Assembly: GCA_902728285.1 (NCBI GenBank)
Contig: CACVBU010000732.1
Span: 2,291,926-2,355,925 of the forward strand
DNA from: Clytia hemisphaerica
Lineage: Eukaryota > Cnidaria > Hydrozoa > Leptothecata > Clytiidae
Length of the DNA stretch: 64,000 nucleotides
Direction: 5' to 3'
A program made the translations under genes and the position numbers. The notes beneath the pieces were generated by a model. It was given only the letters and a program-made list of their open reading frames with translations, did no database searches and was not told the origin of the DNA. Positions 9,801-36,702 of the stretch are shown one piece after another; the stretch's first letter is position 1; each line of letters opens with the position of its first letter.

Positions 9801-12800
9801 TTGAAGGAGTGTGAAAAATCTTTCAATTTGTTAAGATCTGGTTCTTTTCGACCTGCAAGTAAAGAAAAGAAGGATCATCTTCAGAAAAAATCTACGACAC
9901 CGATTGGCTGTTCCATTTAAAAATTGATACAGGGTGGGGGGATGGACGAACCTTTTAATGTCAAAAATAAATTCTTGGAAATGTGAGGATACCTGCTGGA
10001 AAATGGCAAAATTTGCAAATTAACACTCGGAAAAGTTTTATTTTATACTTTAAATGGTTTAAAGTGACAGTGGACGAAATAAAACTTGTCTTGTCCAAAT
10101 TTTAGAATAACTATATTTACCCCCTGGAAAAAAAAACACTTCTTTAGACCCCCCTGGAAATTCTTCTCGGGTTACCCCCTGGAAATGTTTGTCCACCCCC
10201 CCCCCCCTGTATGGAGATAAAATGGAATGGCCCAATGGCTGGAACGATGGCTGAGACGTCTAAAAGCGCCAACCCCACGAACCTATACCACTTTCAACGC
10301 TCCGTTAGAGTTCATATATTGCTGTAAAATATCGACTATATCTTCGATTATGGACAAAAATGATCTGGCACCATTTTAAACTGTCAATCTTGCGATCCTT
10401 GTTAACACAGTACTCTGACAAAACTTATCTTCGAGGTGCGAAAGTACAAAATTAGCGTTTTTTACAAGAATTCTTTTCCTTTGAAAGGGTCTTTGCATAA
10501 ATTCGTTTATTTCTGGGAAAACTTTACGCTAAACCTGTAATAGTACTGCATCAGACCTGCTCTGATTCACAAAAAGAGTTGTTAAAAAGTTACGGACAAA
10601 AAAAGCCATACCATCCTCATTAATCTTATTGATTTTTCCGAACTTGATGACTTCGCCCTGTCCTCTTGGCGTCGTGCTTGGCATCTGCTCCATGCGCGTG
10701 TGTTCAACCGCACCCGTCTTGTTCGTCGTGCTTAGTCGACTACTATACGAAGCTTTCGGGGCGTTTGAGGTGGGCGTCGGGGCGGATCCAGCAGCTAACG
10801 ACAAGCCGGGAGGGCCTTGTGTTGGCGCCTTAGGGGCGTCTTGATGGGTACCAGTTGACATAGGCATTTGGTTGACAGGTGGCTTATTGGCGGGAGGGGT
10901 ACTGTTACTTTTAGCAACAGCCTGTTTAGCTTGTGCGATATATTGTTGTTTTGCATTATGCAATTGTTCTTGTTTGACAGGTAGAGCTTTACTTATATCT
11001 TGAGGTTCCACTGCTTGGGCGGGAGGACCTGCTTTCATAGGCGGCCGCCCATTGTTGACAGGCGGCTGTTGTCCAATATTATTGGTGATTTGTACTCCTT
11101 GAGGCTGTTGTCCTGGTAGAGGGGGCATTCCACCGCTTGGTTTATTACGCGCTGCTACTGAAGAATAGGACTTCAACGGTGGAGGGATGTTGGGGTCGAC
11201 CACTACGTTTTGTGAGTGATTATGTGGTGCTCCACCGGTGGGTTGGTTTTTGCTTGGTACTTGTTTGTGATGAGGGTCATGATGGTTGCTATGGTGAGTA
11301 TGATGGTTACTATGGTGATGATTATTGTAGGGTGAAGCTGATTGGTGGTTTTGTGGTGATCGATTGTTCGAATATTCGTGTTGCTGTTGTTGGTATTCTA
11401 CAGAATATAAAGAAAACAAAGCAGTATAAAAAACCTGATAAATAGATTAAAACTCTAGCCCGATTAGATTTTAGGACAGCCCCCAGAGAATTACCCCCCC
11501 TCCCAAACAATTACCTTCGAGACAAAATTTTGATCGTTACAGTTAGTCTTTTTTACTATTCGTCTTGTTGCAAATCGTCCCTCACATGACTTAAGGTTTA
11601 ATCTCAAAATTAATACCTTATGAAATTTAGAGTTTTACTGTGGTGGTCATCTTTGAGATTGAGATTGCTCTTTTTTCATGTAGAGGAATAGTCGATGTTT
11701 TCATAGGACAAAAAGGCCAATGTCAAAGGCAGAACAGGATTGCAAGATTTCCAATTTTCCAAGACAATTATTTGAGATTGAACCTTTAGTCATGTGAGGG
11801 ACGAAATGTAGTTTTAAGAATGCTGTATGAAAGTGTATAAGGATGCTGTTAATAGTACGATTTTTCAAAAAGCCATTTTTTACTCGAACCTCTCATTTCG
11901 GGTCTCATTTACAGGAGAAAATTGTCTGCATCATACAACAACAAACTGTAAACAAACATGTATGACCAAAAGTTAACTTTCCTTCACAAAACTTCAAAAT
12001 ATCTTTCAAAAATTCAGGAAATTCCAAAGATAAGTTTTTTTTATAAGAACATTAAGGCTACAATTGAGTTATTTGATCACCATAAATTTAATTGTCTGGG
12101 GGTAATTGTCCTATCTATCTCATCAAAAAATTTAGTAATTTGGCTACGAACATTGATGCATGCTTATAAATAGTGATTTTTATGGATAAAAATTCAATTA
12201 TTGAGGCGAGAAAATGTTTTTGTGAAAATCTGCTTCAACAATATTTTGCCGATGGTGGTAGGTACCCTTTCATGCAAAAAATCAGGGAAGATTAATTTAC
12301 AGTAATATATTTCTCAGGTCTATCGACCTCTATGAAATAATCATGCTTAACATTTTACAATTTTACAGTTGTAGGCGCATGGGCCTAACCAGTCGTCTTT
12401 ACAATATTTCATTTTCAGTAACCGGTTTGTTACAGATCTTCTTAAAGTAGAGTTTTGTCCGAGGACTTCCTCTAACCTTATATATCCAGCTGCCATCCTT
12501 TTGTAATTCTGTTTTCTCCTTTGCCTTCCTATGCCACTCTTTGATGGTTTCGCGTTCTTTCTTCGAAAAATCGTCGGATACTCTAAATTCGTCTTTCTCT
12601 AATTTGTGGACTGATGCCAGAATATGACGTTTCTCTTCTTCGTTCTTTAGAACGACTTTCAAGGGTCGCCATCTTTTTGTTTTGAACATTTCGTCCTTCC
12701 GAGCTCCTATTCTTTCTGCGCTGACGATGTTTACCTTAAATCCCATTTGGTTTTGTACAACTTCTTCAACATAATCCTTATCACCGACACGTTGTTCTTC

Positions 12801-15800
12801 TAGGTCTTCATGTTTGTTCTCTCCGAGGTTGTGAACAATGATATTGTACTTTGTTAAGTTTAACCATCGTTCTTCTTCTTTCTCTTCTTTGATGAAATTC
12901 TTGATCGTTACCTCTTGTTTCTTTAGCTCATCTTTAGTAATGCTAGCGTATGTCTGTTGTTGCTTTGATCCTATATCGTGGTCTTTTTTCTTTAGCTCAT
13001 CTTTAGCGATGCTAGCGTATGTCTGTTGTTGTTTGGATCCTTTAACGACATCATCTTTGTTTACAAGATCGTCGATCTTCTTCTCCAGTCTATCCAGTCT
13101 AGCGAAAAAACATTGCTCATCTTGATCTTTCTCTTTACCTTCAGTATTTGTTGCCTTGTTATTGGTCGTTCTTTGTTTACTTGTTTTGATCTTCTCTAAT
13201 AATATTGGCGTGACTGTGATGCATTTCGCACATTCGAATCTCCTTGCTTTGTACTGAAGGCAAATCTGTACTTGGTAGGCTGGAAGCTCGGAACAGGCAT
13301 AATGAACAAATCTTTGACACTTCCTACACTGCAAGACATCGTTATCCCGTATTATTTCATTTATAAAGCATTTATTTGGGGAGCAGGATCCATATTTTGA
13401 TGAAATTTCCGTGTTAAGATTTTCAGAAGTTTTCGCCATTTTGTTGCATTGTCAAGAGCACAACCGCACAGATTTTATTTGACGTCAATTATTAAGTTAA
13501 GCGATTAATGATCCAGTTTTCAACAAAGTCCAAAAAAAATGTTTTTTAGCTGGAATTTGCCCCCAAATTTTTTTCCCAAGATCGGGCTACGTCACATTCG
13601 AAGTTTTATAGTTAGGCACCTTGGTGCAAAAAATCATTAAGAATGAATGAGCCAATCTCGAGAAAAGCTAATAACTAAGTAATTGGTAATGTTCTTATAA
13701 AAAAAATATCGAATTTGGCCACTTTTTCTAGAAAAACACGTCTAGCAGCCAAAATTTCATGTCAAACACAAATATTCTTCAAAATTAAGCCTTCATGAGT
13801 AAAAAAAATATCCATCTCATAAAAAAATTGAGTAATTTGACTAAGAACATCGATGTATGCTTATAAATAGCGTTTCTTATGAATTAAGATTCAATTCTTT
13901 AGGCGAAAAATGTTTTGTGTGAAAATCTACTTCAACAATCTTTCACCGATGATGGCACCCTACTTTTATGCAAAAAATCAGGAAAATTAACGATCCAGTT
14001 TTCAACAAAGTCCAAAAAACCCTTTTTTACCCGTTTTTTTTGGCTAGAATTTGCCCCCCCGAATTGTTCTTCCAAAATCGGGCTCCGTTACATTCGAGGG
14101 TTTATAGTTAGGCACCTTTGTGCAAAAAAATCATAAAGGACGAATGAGCAAATCTCGAGAAAAGCTAATAACTAAGTAATTTGTAACGTGCTTATAAAAA
14201 AAATATCGAAATAGACTTGATAATAATAATCATATCAAGGTCACAACTGCAGGATTTATTTGAAAGTAATCAAGAGTAGTAGTTTAGTAGAATACACACA
14301 ACACGACAAAAGGCATTCAGGGAGTAATCAAGAGTAGTAGTTTAGTAGAATACACACAACACGACAAAAGGCATTCAGGGAGTAATCAAGAGTAGTAGTT
14401 TAGTAGAATACACACAACACGACAAAAGGCATTCAGGGAGTAATCAAGAGTAGTAGTTTAGTAGAATACACACAACACGACAAAGGCATTCAGGAGTAAT
14501 CAAGAGTAGTAGTTTAGTAGAATACACACAACACGACAAAAGGCATTCAGGGAGTAATCAGAGTAGTAGTTTAGTAGAATACACACAACACGACAAAAGG
14601 CATTCAGGGAGTAATCAAGAGTAGTAGTTTAGTAGAATACACACAACACGACAAAAGGCATTCAGGGAGTAATCAAGAGTAGTAGTTTAGTAGAATACAC
14701 ACAACACGACAAAAGGCATTCAGGGAAATTTCAAACGGACAACGAATCTGTATTTTGAGAGAATAAAAAGCTCGACAGCGAGAGTGGTGACGTCATTAAC
14801 TATAAAAGCAGAAACCGATACTGGAAAATGAGCTATTTCAACATGGGCGATGAAGTGGAGAGGACTACTACTTTTACTGCCTCTCGAGGCGATGTCTTTA
14901 TCGAGACAGACAAGGAGTCTACTTTTGTTATTTGTGGGTTGGTGAGATACTCTACACTACCAGAGGTTCGTCAACAGGATATTGGAAATGTTGAGATACA
15001 ATGTACAAGGAGAAGATCTCCAGTTGAAAGTTCGCATCTAGAGGCAGCTAGATTTGAAAATACCCAGGAGAATGGAAGTCAAAATAACCCGCCAAATGGA
15101 GCCCAAAGTAATGGTTGATAACACATAGATTGACCGTGACAGTTTCGTAAAAAATAGGATGAAAGCTGCATTTGTCCTTTTCTTGTCATTGTTGGAAAAA
15201 GAAAAGTAGTTATCAAAAAGACTATTTTGCTTACTTCAGGAACTGTAACATGGTGTAACATGAAACATTCATTTATTCATTCACTTATTCATTCATTTTG
15301 TACATTCCGCAATTTTAGCCGTGGAATATTTTATTTATAACTAATTGTAAAAATCAGCCCAGTCATTCAAACTTGTCAAACAGTTAAATAAATTTACTTT
15401 TAAATCACCTCGAGTCAAAGAATTTTAGTTATCTTTCCCTTTTTTACTATACAGTTATACACCTTTTCGACCGTAGCCACCAATTGCTGCGCGGGCACTT
15501 TTTGTCCGCTTTATCCCACTAAAACCGTCCCAGTCCTTTTTTCGCACCAATAGAAAATAGAAAAATGCGTCAAAAAAGGATTGGGACGGTTTTAGTGGGA
15601 TAAAGCGGAGAAAAAAATGCCCGCGCTACTACGGTCAAAAAGGAGTATTGTATTGATGGATAAAATCTGCGTGGCTAATCAAGATTAGTACCTGTAGCAA
15701 AGTCAAAATGATAAGAGAAAATAAGGTGGGGCGAAAAAAAGAAAGTCAATAAATATTTACACTTACGAGGGTGTCTTGGGCTGCCGCCATTGACTCTTTG

Positions 15801-32340: not shown

Positions 32341-35300
32341 GCAATTATTGCTCATTGCCGAAAAGAGCAATTTTTTCAGCAATGAAATGCTGAATCAGCA
32401 GAAAAATAAAAAAGTAAATGAATGAAAATTGCCGTTTTTGGCAATTATTGCCACTTTTGGAAAGAAAAGTTGATTTTATTATTGAACACACGGTATTTGA
32501 CACCCTCGCGATAAGTAGGCCCACTCTGCCTCATTTAGTTTTGTTTTCAACTGGTTTTTGTTGGAAATGCAGCTTTAAAAATGAGTCATGTGTAAACAAA
32601 TAAAAAGAAACACCATAACTCCAAATTTGAGTCGAAGTTTTCTAGATGAATGATCAAGAAAAATAAACAAAGACAGAGACCCGTCCACTAAAAGGCGGCA
32701 ACCTGTCTAAAATCACTATATAAAATGGCTCCAAGATGTCCTATTTGCAATCGTGCTGTTGCCATATCACATAGAGCAATTGAATGTGATGGTTGCTCAA
32801 ATTGGATACATATCAAATGTGGCCAGATCAGTCCAAAGCGATATGATGAACTTCAAATATTGGAAACATTTAACTGGCTTTGTCCAAATTGTCACCGTAT
32901 ACCAACTGAAAACTTAAATGAACTCTTGAATAATGATACTGAAATTAATTTAGAAATTGATGAGGAAATCATGAAAGCGTTCAAAGAGATTGCTACAAAA
33001 ATCAATGAAGGAAACGGAATAAAAGTTGCTCACCTCAACATAAATGGACTTCTTGCAAAACTAAACTTGCTCAAAGTTTTGTTGGAAGAAACTAATCTAG
33101 ACATCCTTGCTATCACTGAAACACATCTTCAACCAGATACATCAGATGACAAAGTAAAAATTGAGAACTATGAATTGTTGCGTCGTGACAGAAAAACTGA
33201 AAATGGCTGGGGAGGAGTTATAGTTTACCATAAAAAAATCCTAAACGGTATTGAATATAAAACCTTAAATGAGACAGATCTTGAAATGACTTGGTTGGAA
33301 TGCAATGTCAAATCACAGAGATTTCTTGTTTGTTGTGTATATCAACCCCCACGTGAACATCGAACTTTTCTTACCAAATTTGAAACCATTGTTAGTGAGA
33401 TAACAACCAAGAGACGTAATGTAATTATTGTTGGAGATCTGAATATTGATATGTTAGAGGAAAACGAATCTAGTGCACCTATTCGAAATCAACTAAAAAA
33501 ACTGCTAAACACCCGCAACTTACATAATGCAATCACAGAACCTACGCGCATCACAGAAACATCCAAAACTCTCATTGATCACATAATTATACCAAATGCG
33601 ATCAAACACAAGATAAATAATGCAAAATCAATGGATCCTGCAATTTCAGATCACCACCTTATATTCTGTTCATTCTCCGCAGTACAGATAAAGGAAAAAC
33701 CGATGATAAAAACTGTTAGAAACTACAAAAACATTGATATAAAACAGCTGAAAAATGATATCTTGTCAGCCCCATGGCAAGTTTGTGATATATTTGACGA
33801 TGTTGATGATACATTATATGTATGGGAAACCTTGTATAATAGTACTGTCAATGAACACTTCAAAGAACGTAAAGTCAAAATAAGATCAAAGTCACATCCA
33901 TGGATCAATGGACTAATTCGTAAACAGTTAAACAATCGCTTCAAACTACTTAAAACAGCCCAAAAAACACCAAAGGACTCACATGAGTGGAAAATATACC
34001 GCAGAGCCAAAAATCACTGCACTAAAATTCTTAGAACTGCTGAAGCAAAATATTGGAGGGATAAATTTCAGGGGCTTTCTCCCTCAAGTAAAAACTTTTG
34101 GAATTGTATCAATGAATTTATCGGAAAAAGTAAACAACAGAATGTCGGCCCTCTAGAGGATGAAAAGGGGGTCCTTACGACCGATGAACCTATGAAATGT
34201 AATATTCTTAATAACTATTTTGCGAACATTGGGAAGCTTGATAAAATACCTGAAAATTCAGACCTGATGAGCCATATTTACAGAGTGACACCTAGAATAT
34301 CGAATGTCAACTACGAATTCTACAAACTGAGCAGAATCTTTAAACATGTCTTCAAACCTAACAAAGCAGGAGGACACGATTGTGTAAATTCTAAAATAAT
34401 GAGATTAATCGGTGAAGAAGCTTTAACTGGTCTTCACTATATTGCAAAGAAAAGTTTTGAAACAAATAAATTTCCGACCAAACATAAAGTGGCAAAAGTA
34501 ACTTGTATTTTCAAAAATAAAGGGTCAAAAACAAAAAGCGAAAATTACAGGCCCATCTCCCTTCTTTGTTTACCAGGAAAAATGCTGGAGGCTATCATAG
34601 CTTCAGAAGTCGATGCTCATGTTTACCAACATCAACTCCTAAGTAATCAGCAATGGGGTTTTAGAAAGGGACGATCTCCAGAACTCATGCTTATAAGAAT
34701 GTGTAGTAGATGGCTCTCATTACTCGACAAAGGGAAATTTATTGGAGTTTTGCTAATTGATTTTAGTAAAGCCTTTGACAGCGTCTGTCATAAAACTTTA
34801 TTAAAGAAAATCACTGCCATTGGAATCTCAGGAGACTTGTTCGAGTGGTGCAAAAGTTATCTAAGTGAAAGGCAACAGTTTGTTAAAATTGGAAATAGTA
34901 AATCAACCATCAAACCAGTAGAGCAAGGAGTTCCACAGGGCTCCATCTTAGGCCCTAGATGCTATTCCTACCATGCGAATGACCTTCCAGATGCAACAAA
35001 ATCAGAAGATACTCTTGAGGATGAGAATCAAGATGAAACGGAAATGTGTGCTGACGATACTACAGAATCCAGTGCTGCAGATACTATTGATGAATTGATA
35101 CCAAAAATCCAAGCAGCTGCCAATAAACTGCACAATTGGTCAGCTTTGAATGGAATGATAATTCATCCTGGAAAAAACGAAAATCATGATCATCTCCAAA
35201 CGTAAATTTATTGGTCCACTGCAGAACATCACCATGAATGGAAGAAACCTTGAAATTGTGGATCACCAGAAGGTTTTGGGAACCACCATTGACGATTCCT

Positions 35301-36702
35301 TATCCTGGAGAGTACAAATTGATAAAAACGAAAAGCACTATCGCACAAAAATCAAAATGTTGAAACGTATGGTTATTCTTGGTAATGTTGTCATGTCAAA
35401 ATTTTACTTTGCAACGATTATTCCATCCGTTACTTATAATATAACAGTATGGGGCAACAATAATGTTATCTTGAAAAAGCTAGAAATTCTGCATGTACGA
35501 GCTGCTAGACGAATATTCCAACCACCTGACCATTTGTCTGACGATGAGGTACTAAAGGCAGCTGGATGGATGAGTATTGAATATTTGTATAAACGAAGAC
35601 TGTTATGTCTTATGCACAAAATATTTTACAGAAATATTGATTCAGAACTATCAAATATGTTTTGTATTTTGAACTCAAAATCTACTCCTAAACGGAGGGA
35701 CAATCAAGTAAAAATTGCTAAACAATTCAAAACAACAAATCAAAATACTTTTGTTGTTAGAGCATCCAAGATATGGAATGCAATGCCGAATGAACTTACC
35801 AATGTATCAAAATTTGACATTTTTAGGAATAAATTGAAAAATTTTAAAGATAAGATCAATAAATTTTCTTTTACATATAATTCATACAATATTAGAGATG
35901 ACTATGTATTTATTTAGTTAATCTTTATCAAACAACTTTATACACATCATTTCCCATGAACTTTGCTTTACATTAAATTCTTTGATTATGAAACATAAAC
36001 TTTGAAGTCCTATCTTAGCTATATTCTTGGCAAACAAAACAATTTGTTTGCTTAATTTCCCTATCTCACTTTGATGACCTAGATTTTAAAATTTTATTTA
36101 TTTTTTTTTTTTAGATACATAGCTTTTAATTTTATATTGCACATGCGTAGGTTTTTATGACTCATAGGTTACATTAGGTTAGCTCAAGTCTAGTTCTAAT
36201 TAACTCCTATAACAAAACTAAATCTCACTTAAGCCACATAAGCTTATCAAGCTTACTTTTTTCTCTGGTTAACTATCCTTCAGAAATCTCTGCACTAATA
36301 ATTTACAGCATATACATAATTTTAATACATTTTAACTATTTTTCATTTGTAATATAGTCCTTAGTTGCAGGTCCACATCAGCTTAGTCTGCGTTTTTTAA
36401 CCTGCTTTATCAAATAAATAAAATAAAAAAAAAAAAAAAATAACAAACTTACACCAGGGGTTTCTCTTTCTGGCTATGTTTCGGCATCGATGCAAGATCT
36501 TTTTACATATTATTTTAGAACGAAAAATTGAAAAAATCACTTTTAAAAATCTGGAAAACCTTTTTCTCTACAGTACATTCTGCAGTACATACACCTGTAT
36601 GCAATTTTACAATTCTCAAACCTCTGACATCTTTGCAAGATAAGGACAACATATTTTGCTGATTGAGCATTTCATTGCTAAAAAAATTGAGCAATAATTG
36701 CC
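32341..36702. repeat. 60-bp inverted repeats flanking the LINE
   Basis: GGCAATTATTGCTCA...AGCAATGAAATGCTGA at 32346-32397 reappears inverted at 36658-36702. The retrotransposon lies between them. Most simply an older TIR element was split by the LINE insertion. Confidence 0.55.
32725..35917 (+). pseudogene. CR1/L2-like LINE ORF2 (PHD-endonuclease-RT), one frameshift
   Basis: The first 826 codons contain an N-terminal PHD-like finger (residues about 5-56), an APE-type endonuclease (HLNINGL, AITETHL, GDLNID, SDHHLIF) and a reverse transcriptase (YRPISLL, LIDFSKAFD, GVPQGSILGP). Such proteins nick DNA and copy their own RNA at the nick. The frame breaks near 35175 in an A run and continues in the +2 frame at 35186-35917 (LNPC-terminal block ending about KFDIFRNKLKNFKDKINKF). 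The active-site box reads CADD where F/YADD is usual, and an acidic stretch precedes it. The 3' UTR ends in AAATAAATAAAATA plus poly(A) at 36413-36440. No separate ORF1 was seen upstream. Confidence 0.88.

Follow-up and report, generated by a model that had tools for sequence, protein, structure and literature searches.

The 64,000-nucleotide stretch of Clytia hemisphaerica DNA analysed here (the window) carries one member of a family of ORF1-only elements, or half-LINEs, that is young and still intact. The evidence below strongly favours a long-lived LINE derivative with ORF1 (Gag) only, likely CR1/L2-like, that would be copied in trans by LINEs sharing its 3' tail.

Structure of the Window Copy

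The window copy has a single 346-codon ORF1 and no ORF2. It lies within an array of interspersed repeats, about 270 kb inside C508, a 2.57-Mb contig, and has the following features:

12290..12296, no strand: TSD copy GATTAAT; five letters possibly element tail
12297..13488, minus strand: half-LINE core element, 1192 nt, TTGACGTCAA ... TATTACTGTAA (40 copies compared, common 3' end)
12297..12398, minus strand: 3' UTR
12315..12337, minus strand: 3' tail motif TTTCATAGAGGTCGATAGACCTG, hairpin AGGTC-GATA-GACCT, shared with LINEs (G or A at the one R position)
12399..13439, minus strand: ORF1, 346 codons and stop
12516..12854, minus strand: RRM-like order, residues 196-308 (low-confidence model)
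12913..13050, minus strand: 69-bp tandem duplication, two 23-codon units, 86%
13221..13385, minus strand: PHD-like zinc finger, residues 19-73 (C19 C24 C38 C41 H46 C49 C70 C73)
13479..13488, minus strand: 5'-terminal TTGACGTCAA palindrome
13489..13502, no strand: extra 14 nt on the 5' side of the window copy, outside the family sequence and differing between copies
13503..13509, no strand: second TSD copy GATTAAT

The earlier note had placed the element at 12297..13502, between two copies of GATTAAT. The frame stood as described, but the last 14 nt of that interval are not family sequence: when they were included in the query, full-length matches started between positions 12 and 27 of the query, in most cases at 20-22 (position 22 is the T of TTGACGTC), and the sequences upstream of TTGACGTC are unrelated between copies. 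Both GATTAAT copies are present, but five of the seven letters are ambiguous because matches to other copies extend about five letters past the 3' end (ATTAA, the start of a variable tail). Across the family the target site duplications are short and weak, with a mean longest shared word of 5.68 letters versus a shuffled mean of 5.05 (300 shuffles; highest shuffled mean 5.475), and a shared word of seven or more letters was found in 10 of 40 copies (shuffles average 4.3, maximum 10). The empty site can indeed be read from the neighbouring repeat, since the joined flanks align with that repeat copy across the insertion point (112/149 identical, 12% gaps), and the duplicated block reported within the frame is a real tandem repeat.

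Copies in the Genome

In the 417-Mb genome, 40 matches of 836 candidates were scored; the group of the window copy is called group A. The 3' end was the same in all 40; 22 copies were full length, and the remainder were 5'-truncated. Divergence from the consensus was 0.08-2.6% in 39 copies, the 40th being split by a DNA transposon, and a frame of 343-350 residues was kept in 25 of the 38 copies having a start codon. ORF1 led directly into the common 3' end in every scored copy, the split one included, and the tail was present throughout (38 exact, two with one mismatch). These data bear out the proposal of a half-LINE kept open without an RT, and the contrary outcome named in the earlier note, a lone internally deleted copy whose relatives carry ORF2, was not what these copies showed.

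At locus L040, the 0.7 kb between ORF1 and the tail was considered as a hidden ORF2 and proved to be a TTAA-flanked inverted-repeat DNA element. A tail near L003 aside, no further half-LINE copy was found next to any of the 40, within a distance of about 1.5 kb. Several copies have A-rich runs 3' of the tail, which makes priming on poly-A possible.

Such runs, along with a single intact frame and no RT, would also be expected if LINEs had retrocopied a domesticated host gene of LINE ORF1 origin, leaving processed copies; exons of a parent gene were detectable by protein search only among the 117 best candidates. We consider this origin very improbable, given that the copies carry the common LINE tail at their 3' end, that 39 of them are near-identical and that the 5' palindrome recurs in four groups.

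Diverged Groups and Selection on ORF1

Three more ORF1-only groups (B, C, and D) have 57-75% protein identity to the window element and the same 3' tail. In the seven copies read from these groups, the tail was at most 200 nt past ORF1 with no ORF2 between. Among 28 ORF1 matches on contigs C3-C232, an exact tail was found within 300 nt in 23 and at 300-1000 nt in two; none of the 28 had a tail at LINE distance (1-6 kb), and three had none nearby. Homology between groups A and B does not end with ORF1 but extends past its stop into the 3' UTR. In addition, the TTGACGTCAA palindrome, which we take to be CRE-like and a possible promoter element, was present in groups B, C, and D, near the 5' end of a copy from each. 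At least four diverged half-LINE groups of this type coexist, which is unusual and goes beyond what the earlier note proposed. On contig C687 an RT lies 3.6 kb past a group-B ORF1; this RT stretch has a different 3' end lacking the tail, and the group-B copy has already terminated, at a tail of its own, where the stretch begins. No relatives were found in viral_contigs or genome_contigs, which are collections of viruses and prokaryotes.

ORF1 is under selection that is strong between groups and moderate within group A. Between groups, dN/dS was approximately 0.08-0.18 where computable, with most dS values near saturation. The private changes of group A (77 nonsynonymous and 44 synonymous) gave a w of 0.59, moderately below 1, with p 0.009 at kappa 3.2; significance was lost at kappa 6 (p 0.054), and for the shared changes of the group p was 0.07 already at kappa 3.2.

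Features of the ORF1 Protein

Of the eight presumed ligands of the PHD-like finger proposed in the earlier note, all are conserved across the alignment apart from H46, a Tyr in one copy; the Pfam match of the window ORF1 is weak, with an E of 0.0036 that falls below the cut-off. A PHD match was obtained in five of six aligned members, again weakly (best E 0.0024; the sole tabled member was below the cut-off). Toward the C-terminus, residues 196-308 are modelled in a strand-helix-strand-strand-helix-strand order like that of an RRM, in a model with a mean pLDDT of 44.9 (56-79 in blocks over residues 191-300 and 49 over 301-310). No RRM or Tnp22 profile matched the C-terminal part of ORF1. A structure model made from the single sequence was unusable (mean pLDDT 35).

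The 3' Tail and Candidate Partner LINEs

The tail motif occurs 467 times genome-wide, and its reversed control not at all. Its hairpin stem is invariant in the sequences read, so that covariation lends it no support, and folding gives a z-score of only -1.4. On C113, five tails form a tandem array, the only one of its kind, which does not coincide with a known contig end.

At three of 41 RT loci the tail was 665-676 nt past the RT domain, and in the two of these loci that were read it stood just beyond the ORF2 C-terminus. A close relative of one tail-sharing LINE has both endonuclease and RT domains. A third related LINE copy, L084, is without the tail, and its homology to L085 ends where the tail starts. 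One R position in the motif is either G or A; groups A and B carry the G-type. LINEs with the same tail, which the earlier note suggested looking for, do exist: the A-type tail follows the ORF2 of both LINEs read, but the exact G-type was in neither. The PHD-endonuclease-RT LINE of the window itself (32692-35917) was rejected as a partner on account of its different 3' end, as were RT loci L041-L070, where none of the 30 had a convincing tail match.

The hairpin tail ends in TRTAA, and a PHD-like finger is present in both ORF1s, that of the half-LINE and that of the LINE. The LINE clade is probably CR1/L2-like, judged from such features rather than from a tree. Zebrafish L2 LINEs are described as requiring their own 3' stem-loop (PMC4176376), and UnaL2 as terminating in TGTAA repeats (PMC3747384).

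The tail-sharing LINE on C41, the one examined at its 5' end, has its own open ORF1 frame of 353 codons. The two kinds of element might be mutual partners in a bipartite retrotransposon, in which half-LINE ORF1p would serve the LINEs in trans, as the common tail and the large numbers of both half-LINEs and RT loci would allow; the C41 LINE, by keeping an ORF1 of its own, has no evident need for half-LINE ORF1p, and we regard such a partnership as improbable.

The C41 ORF1 is homologous to the half-LINE ORF1s of all four groups (E 1e-18 to 4e-23) but 26-27% identical to them, a distance not foreseen in the earlier note. As it is the only LINE ORF1 read, other LINEs could carry a closer one. The 3' UTR of group C, on the other hand, is 92-95% identical to the last ORF2 codons and tail of the C41 LINE (C832, 95% over 106 nt; C195, 92% over 112 nt) and so retains approximately 14 codons from the ORF2 of a LINE of the C41 type. 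This remnant could be the trace of a recent internal deletion, with each group arising independently from its own LINE with the same ORF1 and the purifying selection having been gained in the LINEs rather than in the half-LINEs; HAL1 is reported to have arisen independently several times (PMC5753468). We think this history unlikely, because the distance of the C41 ORF1 from all four groups indicates that the group C ORF1 did not come from the C41 LINE, because groups A and B are homologous across the ORF1 stop, and because none of the 28 ORF1 matches had its tail at LINE distance.

A plausible reading, if somewhat short of an even chance, and one that the group C 3' end suggests, is that these elements represent an ancient Gag-only satellite lineage, long ORF2-free, that has stayed mobile via the captured or tracked tails of successive LINEs. 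In this reading the time apart from any ORF2 would have let ORF1 fall to about 57% identity between groups and to 26% against the ORF1 of a partner LINE, and the lineage would combine a packaging protein of its own with a borrowed, replaceable tail.

Proposed Mode of Mobilization

For the ORF1-only derivative copied by tail-sharing LINEs, we propose that the half-LINE RNA would be transcribed from its own 5' end, with a putative promoter at the palindrome, and translated into an ORF1p with a PHD-like finger, a helical middle and an RRM-like C-terminal part. This ORF1p would package its own RNA, presumably in cis. Judging from the shared sequence of the tails, mobilization is probably in trans, with reverse transcription by the ORF2p of autonomous LINEs that would recognise the same 3' hairpin tail.

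Relation to Known Systems

The nearest known systems are HAL1 and HeT-A, the latter of which encodes Gag only. HAL1 of mammals is likewise described as non-autonomous and as encoding ORF1p only (PMC5753468). HAL1 is L1-derived. The half-LINE here has a PHD-like finger and a hairpin tail shared with a LINE, like stringent L2-type LINEs, features that point to CR1/L2, and there is only about 26% identity between its ORF1 and the one read from a tail-sharing LINE. HeT-A, a non-LTR element of Drosophila telomeres, is one for which TART or TAHRE should supply the enzymatic activities for transposition (PMC3357415); its telomere-specific head-to-tail arrays are not matched here, the window copy being so far inside its contig. 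Persaeus, a SIDE from the CR1 element Zenon in Lepidoptera, is an internally deleted CR1-type derivative amplified alongside its partner (PMC6740152); the half-LINE keeps a conserved ORF1.

The putative order of an N-terminal PHD-like finger and a C-terminal RRM-like part is similar to that of the type IIC ORF1 (PHD and Tnp22) described for CR1/L2 elements (PMC4120745). Type IIC ORF1 sits 5' to its own endonuclease-RT (PMC4120745), whereas the half-LINE stops after ORF1, and Tnp22 comprises an RRM and a CTD, whereas the RRM-like order of the half-LINE is model-based, without a profile match. A literature search, mostly at title and abstract level and with few subscription papers, returned HAL1 and HeT-A but no diversified ORF1-only lineage among the matches listed.

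ORF1-only LINEs prompt the question of why ORF1 is kept when ORF2 is borrowed, and they imply an action of ORF1p on its own RNA. Here a young system of several groups occurs in the same genome as tail-sharing LINEs, so that this question can be tested. If a coding satellite and its LINE do exchange tails, the idea of shared SINE-LINE tails would extend to protein-coding elements.

Window Copy and Its Boundaries

The insertion and its reading frame, as read from the sequence, were placed as follows.

Between 12290–12296 and 13503–13509, minus strand: half-LINE insertion, flanked by two copies of GATTAAT
12399–13439, minus strand: ORF1 frame of 346 codons, the sole long frame of the insertion

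The earlier note had described a 7-bp GATTAAT duplication enclosing a 346-codon frame and an empty site readable from a neighboring repeat, and both were present. The host sequence is a tandem AT-rich repeat, and the joined flanks aligned to the neighboring repeat copy through the insertion point (112 of 149 positions identical). Since target site duplications were weak across the family (mean longest shared word 5.68 observed vs 5.05 shuffled; 300 shuffles, maximum 5.475), the clean duplication of the window copy is not the strongest argument for insertion; the strongest are the empty site and the 3′ end that the copies share. The core start was set at TTGACGTCAAAT because upstream sequences vary from copy to copy. 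With a longer query, full-length matches started at query positions 12–27, mostly 20–22, the first core base being 22; the window copy extends 14 nucleotides (13489–13502) beyond the core.

The ORF1 frame of the window copy includes a 69-bp tandem duplication and an N-terminal PHD-like finger (Pfam E 0.0036, below Pfam's cut-off). In a low-confidence model from six sequences, the strands and helices of residues 199–289 follow one another much as in an RRM, and profile searches gave no RRM match in ORF1.

Two other features of the window were observed. A 58-bp satellite (14265–14726, ~8 copies, 98% alike) adjoins the host repeat. A different LINE at 32692–35917 (plus strand) carries PHD, endonuclease and RT within a single frame that a frame change breaks near 35162–35205; its A-rich end lies near 36420.

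A Young ORF1-Only Family

A DNA search of the genome (951 contigs totalling 417,433,876 bases) returned 836 first-look candidates. Forty of them were scored, and all 40 matched the window element (group A) at 97–100% identity. After orienting, all ended in TGAGAAATATATWACTGTAA (the last ten in at least its final 15 letters as printed), followed by a variable ATTAA/A-rich run; the 23-letter tail motif was present in all 40 and exact in 38. Full-length copies, beginning at core position ≤6, numbered 22, and the other 18 began further in, as in 5′ truncation. The flank directly past the element differed for every pair of scored copies. Distance from the majority consensus was 0.08–2.6% in 39 copies; in the remaining one, L040, a DNA element with inverted repeats and TTAA flanks interrupts the sequence. 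Near-identity, the common 3′ end, 5′ truncation and unshared flanks together indicate that this is a young, retrotransposed and, among scored copies, ORF1-only family. Judged by these 40 copies, the window element is not a single internally deleted copy of a LINE whose other copies carry ORF2, the outcome that would have spoken against the earlier note.

The DNA element inside L040 (2520–3231, element strand) has inverted ends GGGCTCTGACCATAG, a motif that recurs near the end of locus L076. At L003:2800, a group-D-like tail with one mismatch lies ~140 nt past the group-A tail, suggesting nested or adjacent half-LINE insertions.

Related Groups and Selection on ORF1

Searching with the ORF1 protein yielded 2743 candidates, and the 117 that were scored gave 140 matches. 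Besides group A, these included group B at about 75%, group C at about 59% and group D at about 72% over the C-terminal part. Whole-ORF1 identity to A was 75% for B, 57–58% for C and 69% for D. In the seven copies whose DNA 3′ of ORF1 was read (three of B, two each of C and D), there was no ORF2 between ORF1 and tail, and GATTRTTTCATAGAGGTCRATAGACCTGMGAAATA was reached within 200 nt of ORF1. Homology between A and B ran on without a break past the ORF1 stop codon and into the 3′ UTR. The word TTGACGTCAA lay ~50 nt upstream of the ATG in both group B copies read in this region, in C832 of group C and in C191 of group D, and the exact word was absent from the 5′ regions read in C195 and C716.

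The frame of 343–350 residues was kept in 25 of the 38 group A copies that include the start codon. Counts within group A (39 copies, L040 left out) gave 77 nonsynonymous (three of them stops) and 44 synonymous private changes, and 20 and 13 shared changes, respectively. With kappa at 3.2, derived from 109 transitions and 68 transversions, the ratio was 0.59 for private (p 0.009) and 0.52 for shared changes (p 0.07); with kappa at 6, neither p was below 0.05. Between groups, dN/dS was 0.08–0.18 where computable (A vs C832 was saturated), with dS ~1 for A–B and 1.8–3.4 for other pairs. The signal of selection is much stronger between groups than within group A, where it depends on kappa, and the proposal that the frame has been kept open is supported.

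The Shared Tail and Candidate Partner LINEs

The tail motif occurred 467 times in the genome (reversed control, 0). The first 100 positions, on contigs C3–C232, were compared with 28 ORF1 matches there (32 rows minus four second pieces of one element): a listed tail lay within 300 nt of 23 and at 300–1000 nt from two, and none of the 28 had one at 1–6 kb. The other three had no exact tail nearby, although one (L018) has a one-mismatch tail. On C113 (738575–744626), five motifs recur on one strand at ~1507-nt spacing, a pattern like that of a tandem array that includes the 3′ end of a half-LINE or LINE.

Among the 41 of 150 RT matches on C3–C232, three had a listed tail 665–676 nt downstream on the same strand. 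Two of these three loci were read, L085 (C133) and L086 (C41), and at both the tail comes just past the ORF2 C-terminus, giving LINEs that share the tail motif, as the earlier note had asked for; the L085 frame is broken in that copy. A relative of L085 on C816 (L084) has a 1009-codon frame with endonuclease (E 3e-13) and RT (E 8e-38) and lacks the tail. Homology between the two copies stops, at L084:4283 and L085:790, exactly where the L085 tail begins; this would be expected if the tail is an exchangeable module, or if L084 was cut at that point. These LINEs are probably CR1/L2-like, judging by the tail, the PHD-like ORF1 and features of the RT.

The C41 LINE has its own ORF1, an open 353-codon frame upstream of its RT, only 26–27% identical to half-LINE ORF1s (E 1e-18 to 4e-23). 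In contrast, the group C 3′ UTR matches that LINE at 95% (C832, 106 nt) and 92% (C195, 112 nt), over a segment comprising the last ~14 ORF2 codons and the tail. This disparity indicates that group C acquired its 3′ end recently from a LINE, whereas the ORF1 of group C goes with those of the other half-LINEs. The same pattern is also compatible with an unseen LINE that could combine a half-LINE-like ORF1 with a C41-like 3′ end. The data fit an old ORF1-only lineage taking or tracking the tails of current LINEs.

Proposed Mechanism and Comparison with Known Elements

A short hairpin (AGGTC-GATA-GACCT, fold z −1.4) is present in the half-LINE tail, which ends in TRTAA in groups A, B and D and in one of two copies of C. 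We propose that a partner's ORF2p would recognize this tail and copy the RNA in trans, while the half-LINE ORF1p may package its own RNA, which would explain the selection on ORF1. The 5′ palindrome of the half-LINE may be CRE-like. Stringent L2-type LINEs are described as requiring their own 3′ stem-loop (PMC4176376), and UnaL2 as ending in TGTAA repeats (PMC3747384).

In PMC4120745, the ORF1s of CR1 and L2 lineages that combine PHD with Tnp22 are classed as type IIC. HAL1, as described in PMC5753468, encodes ORF1p only and arose several times from L1; the Clytia half-LINE would resemble it in its way of working and probably was not derived from L1. HeT-A is telomeric, and TART or TAHRE should provide its enzymatic activities according to PMC3357415. 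The Clytia element is best placed among the half-LINEs, as a probably new variant.
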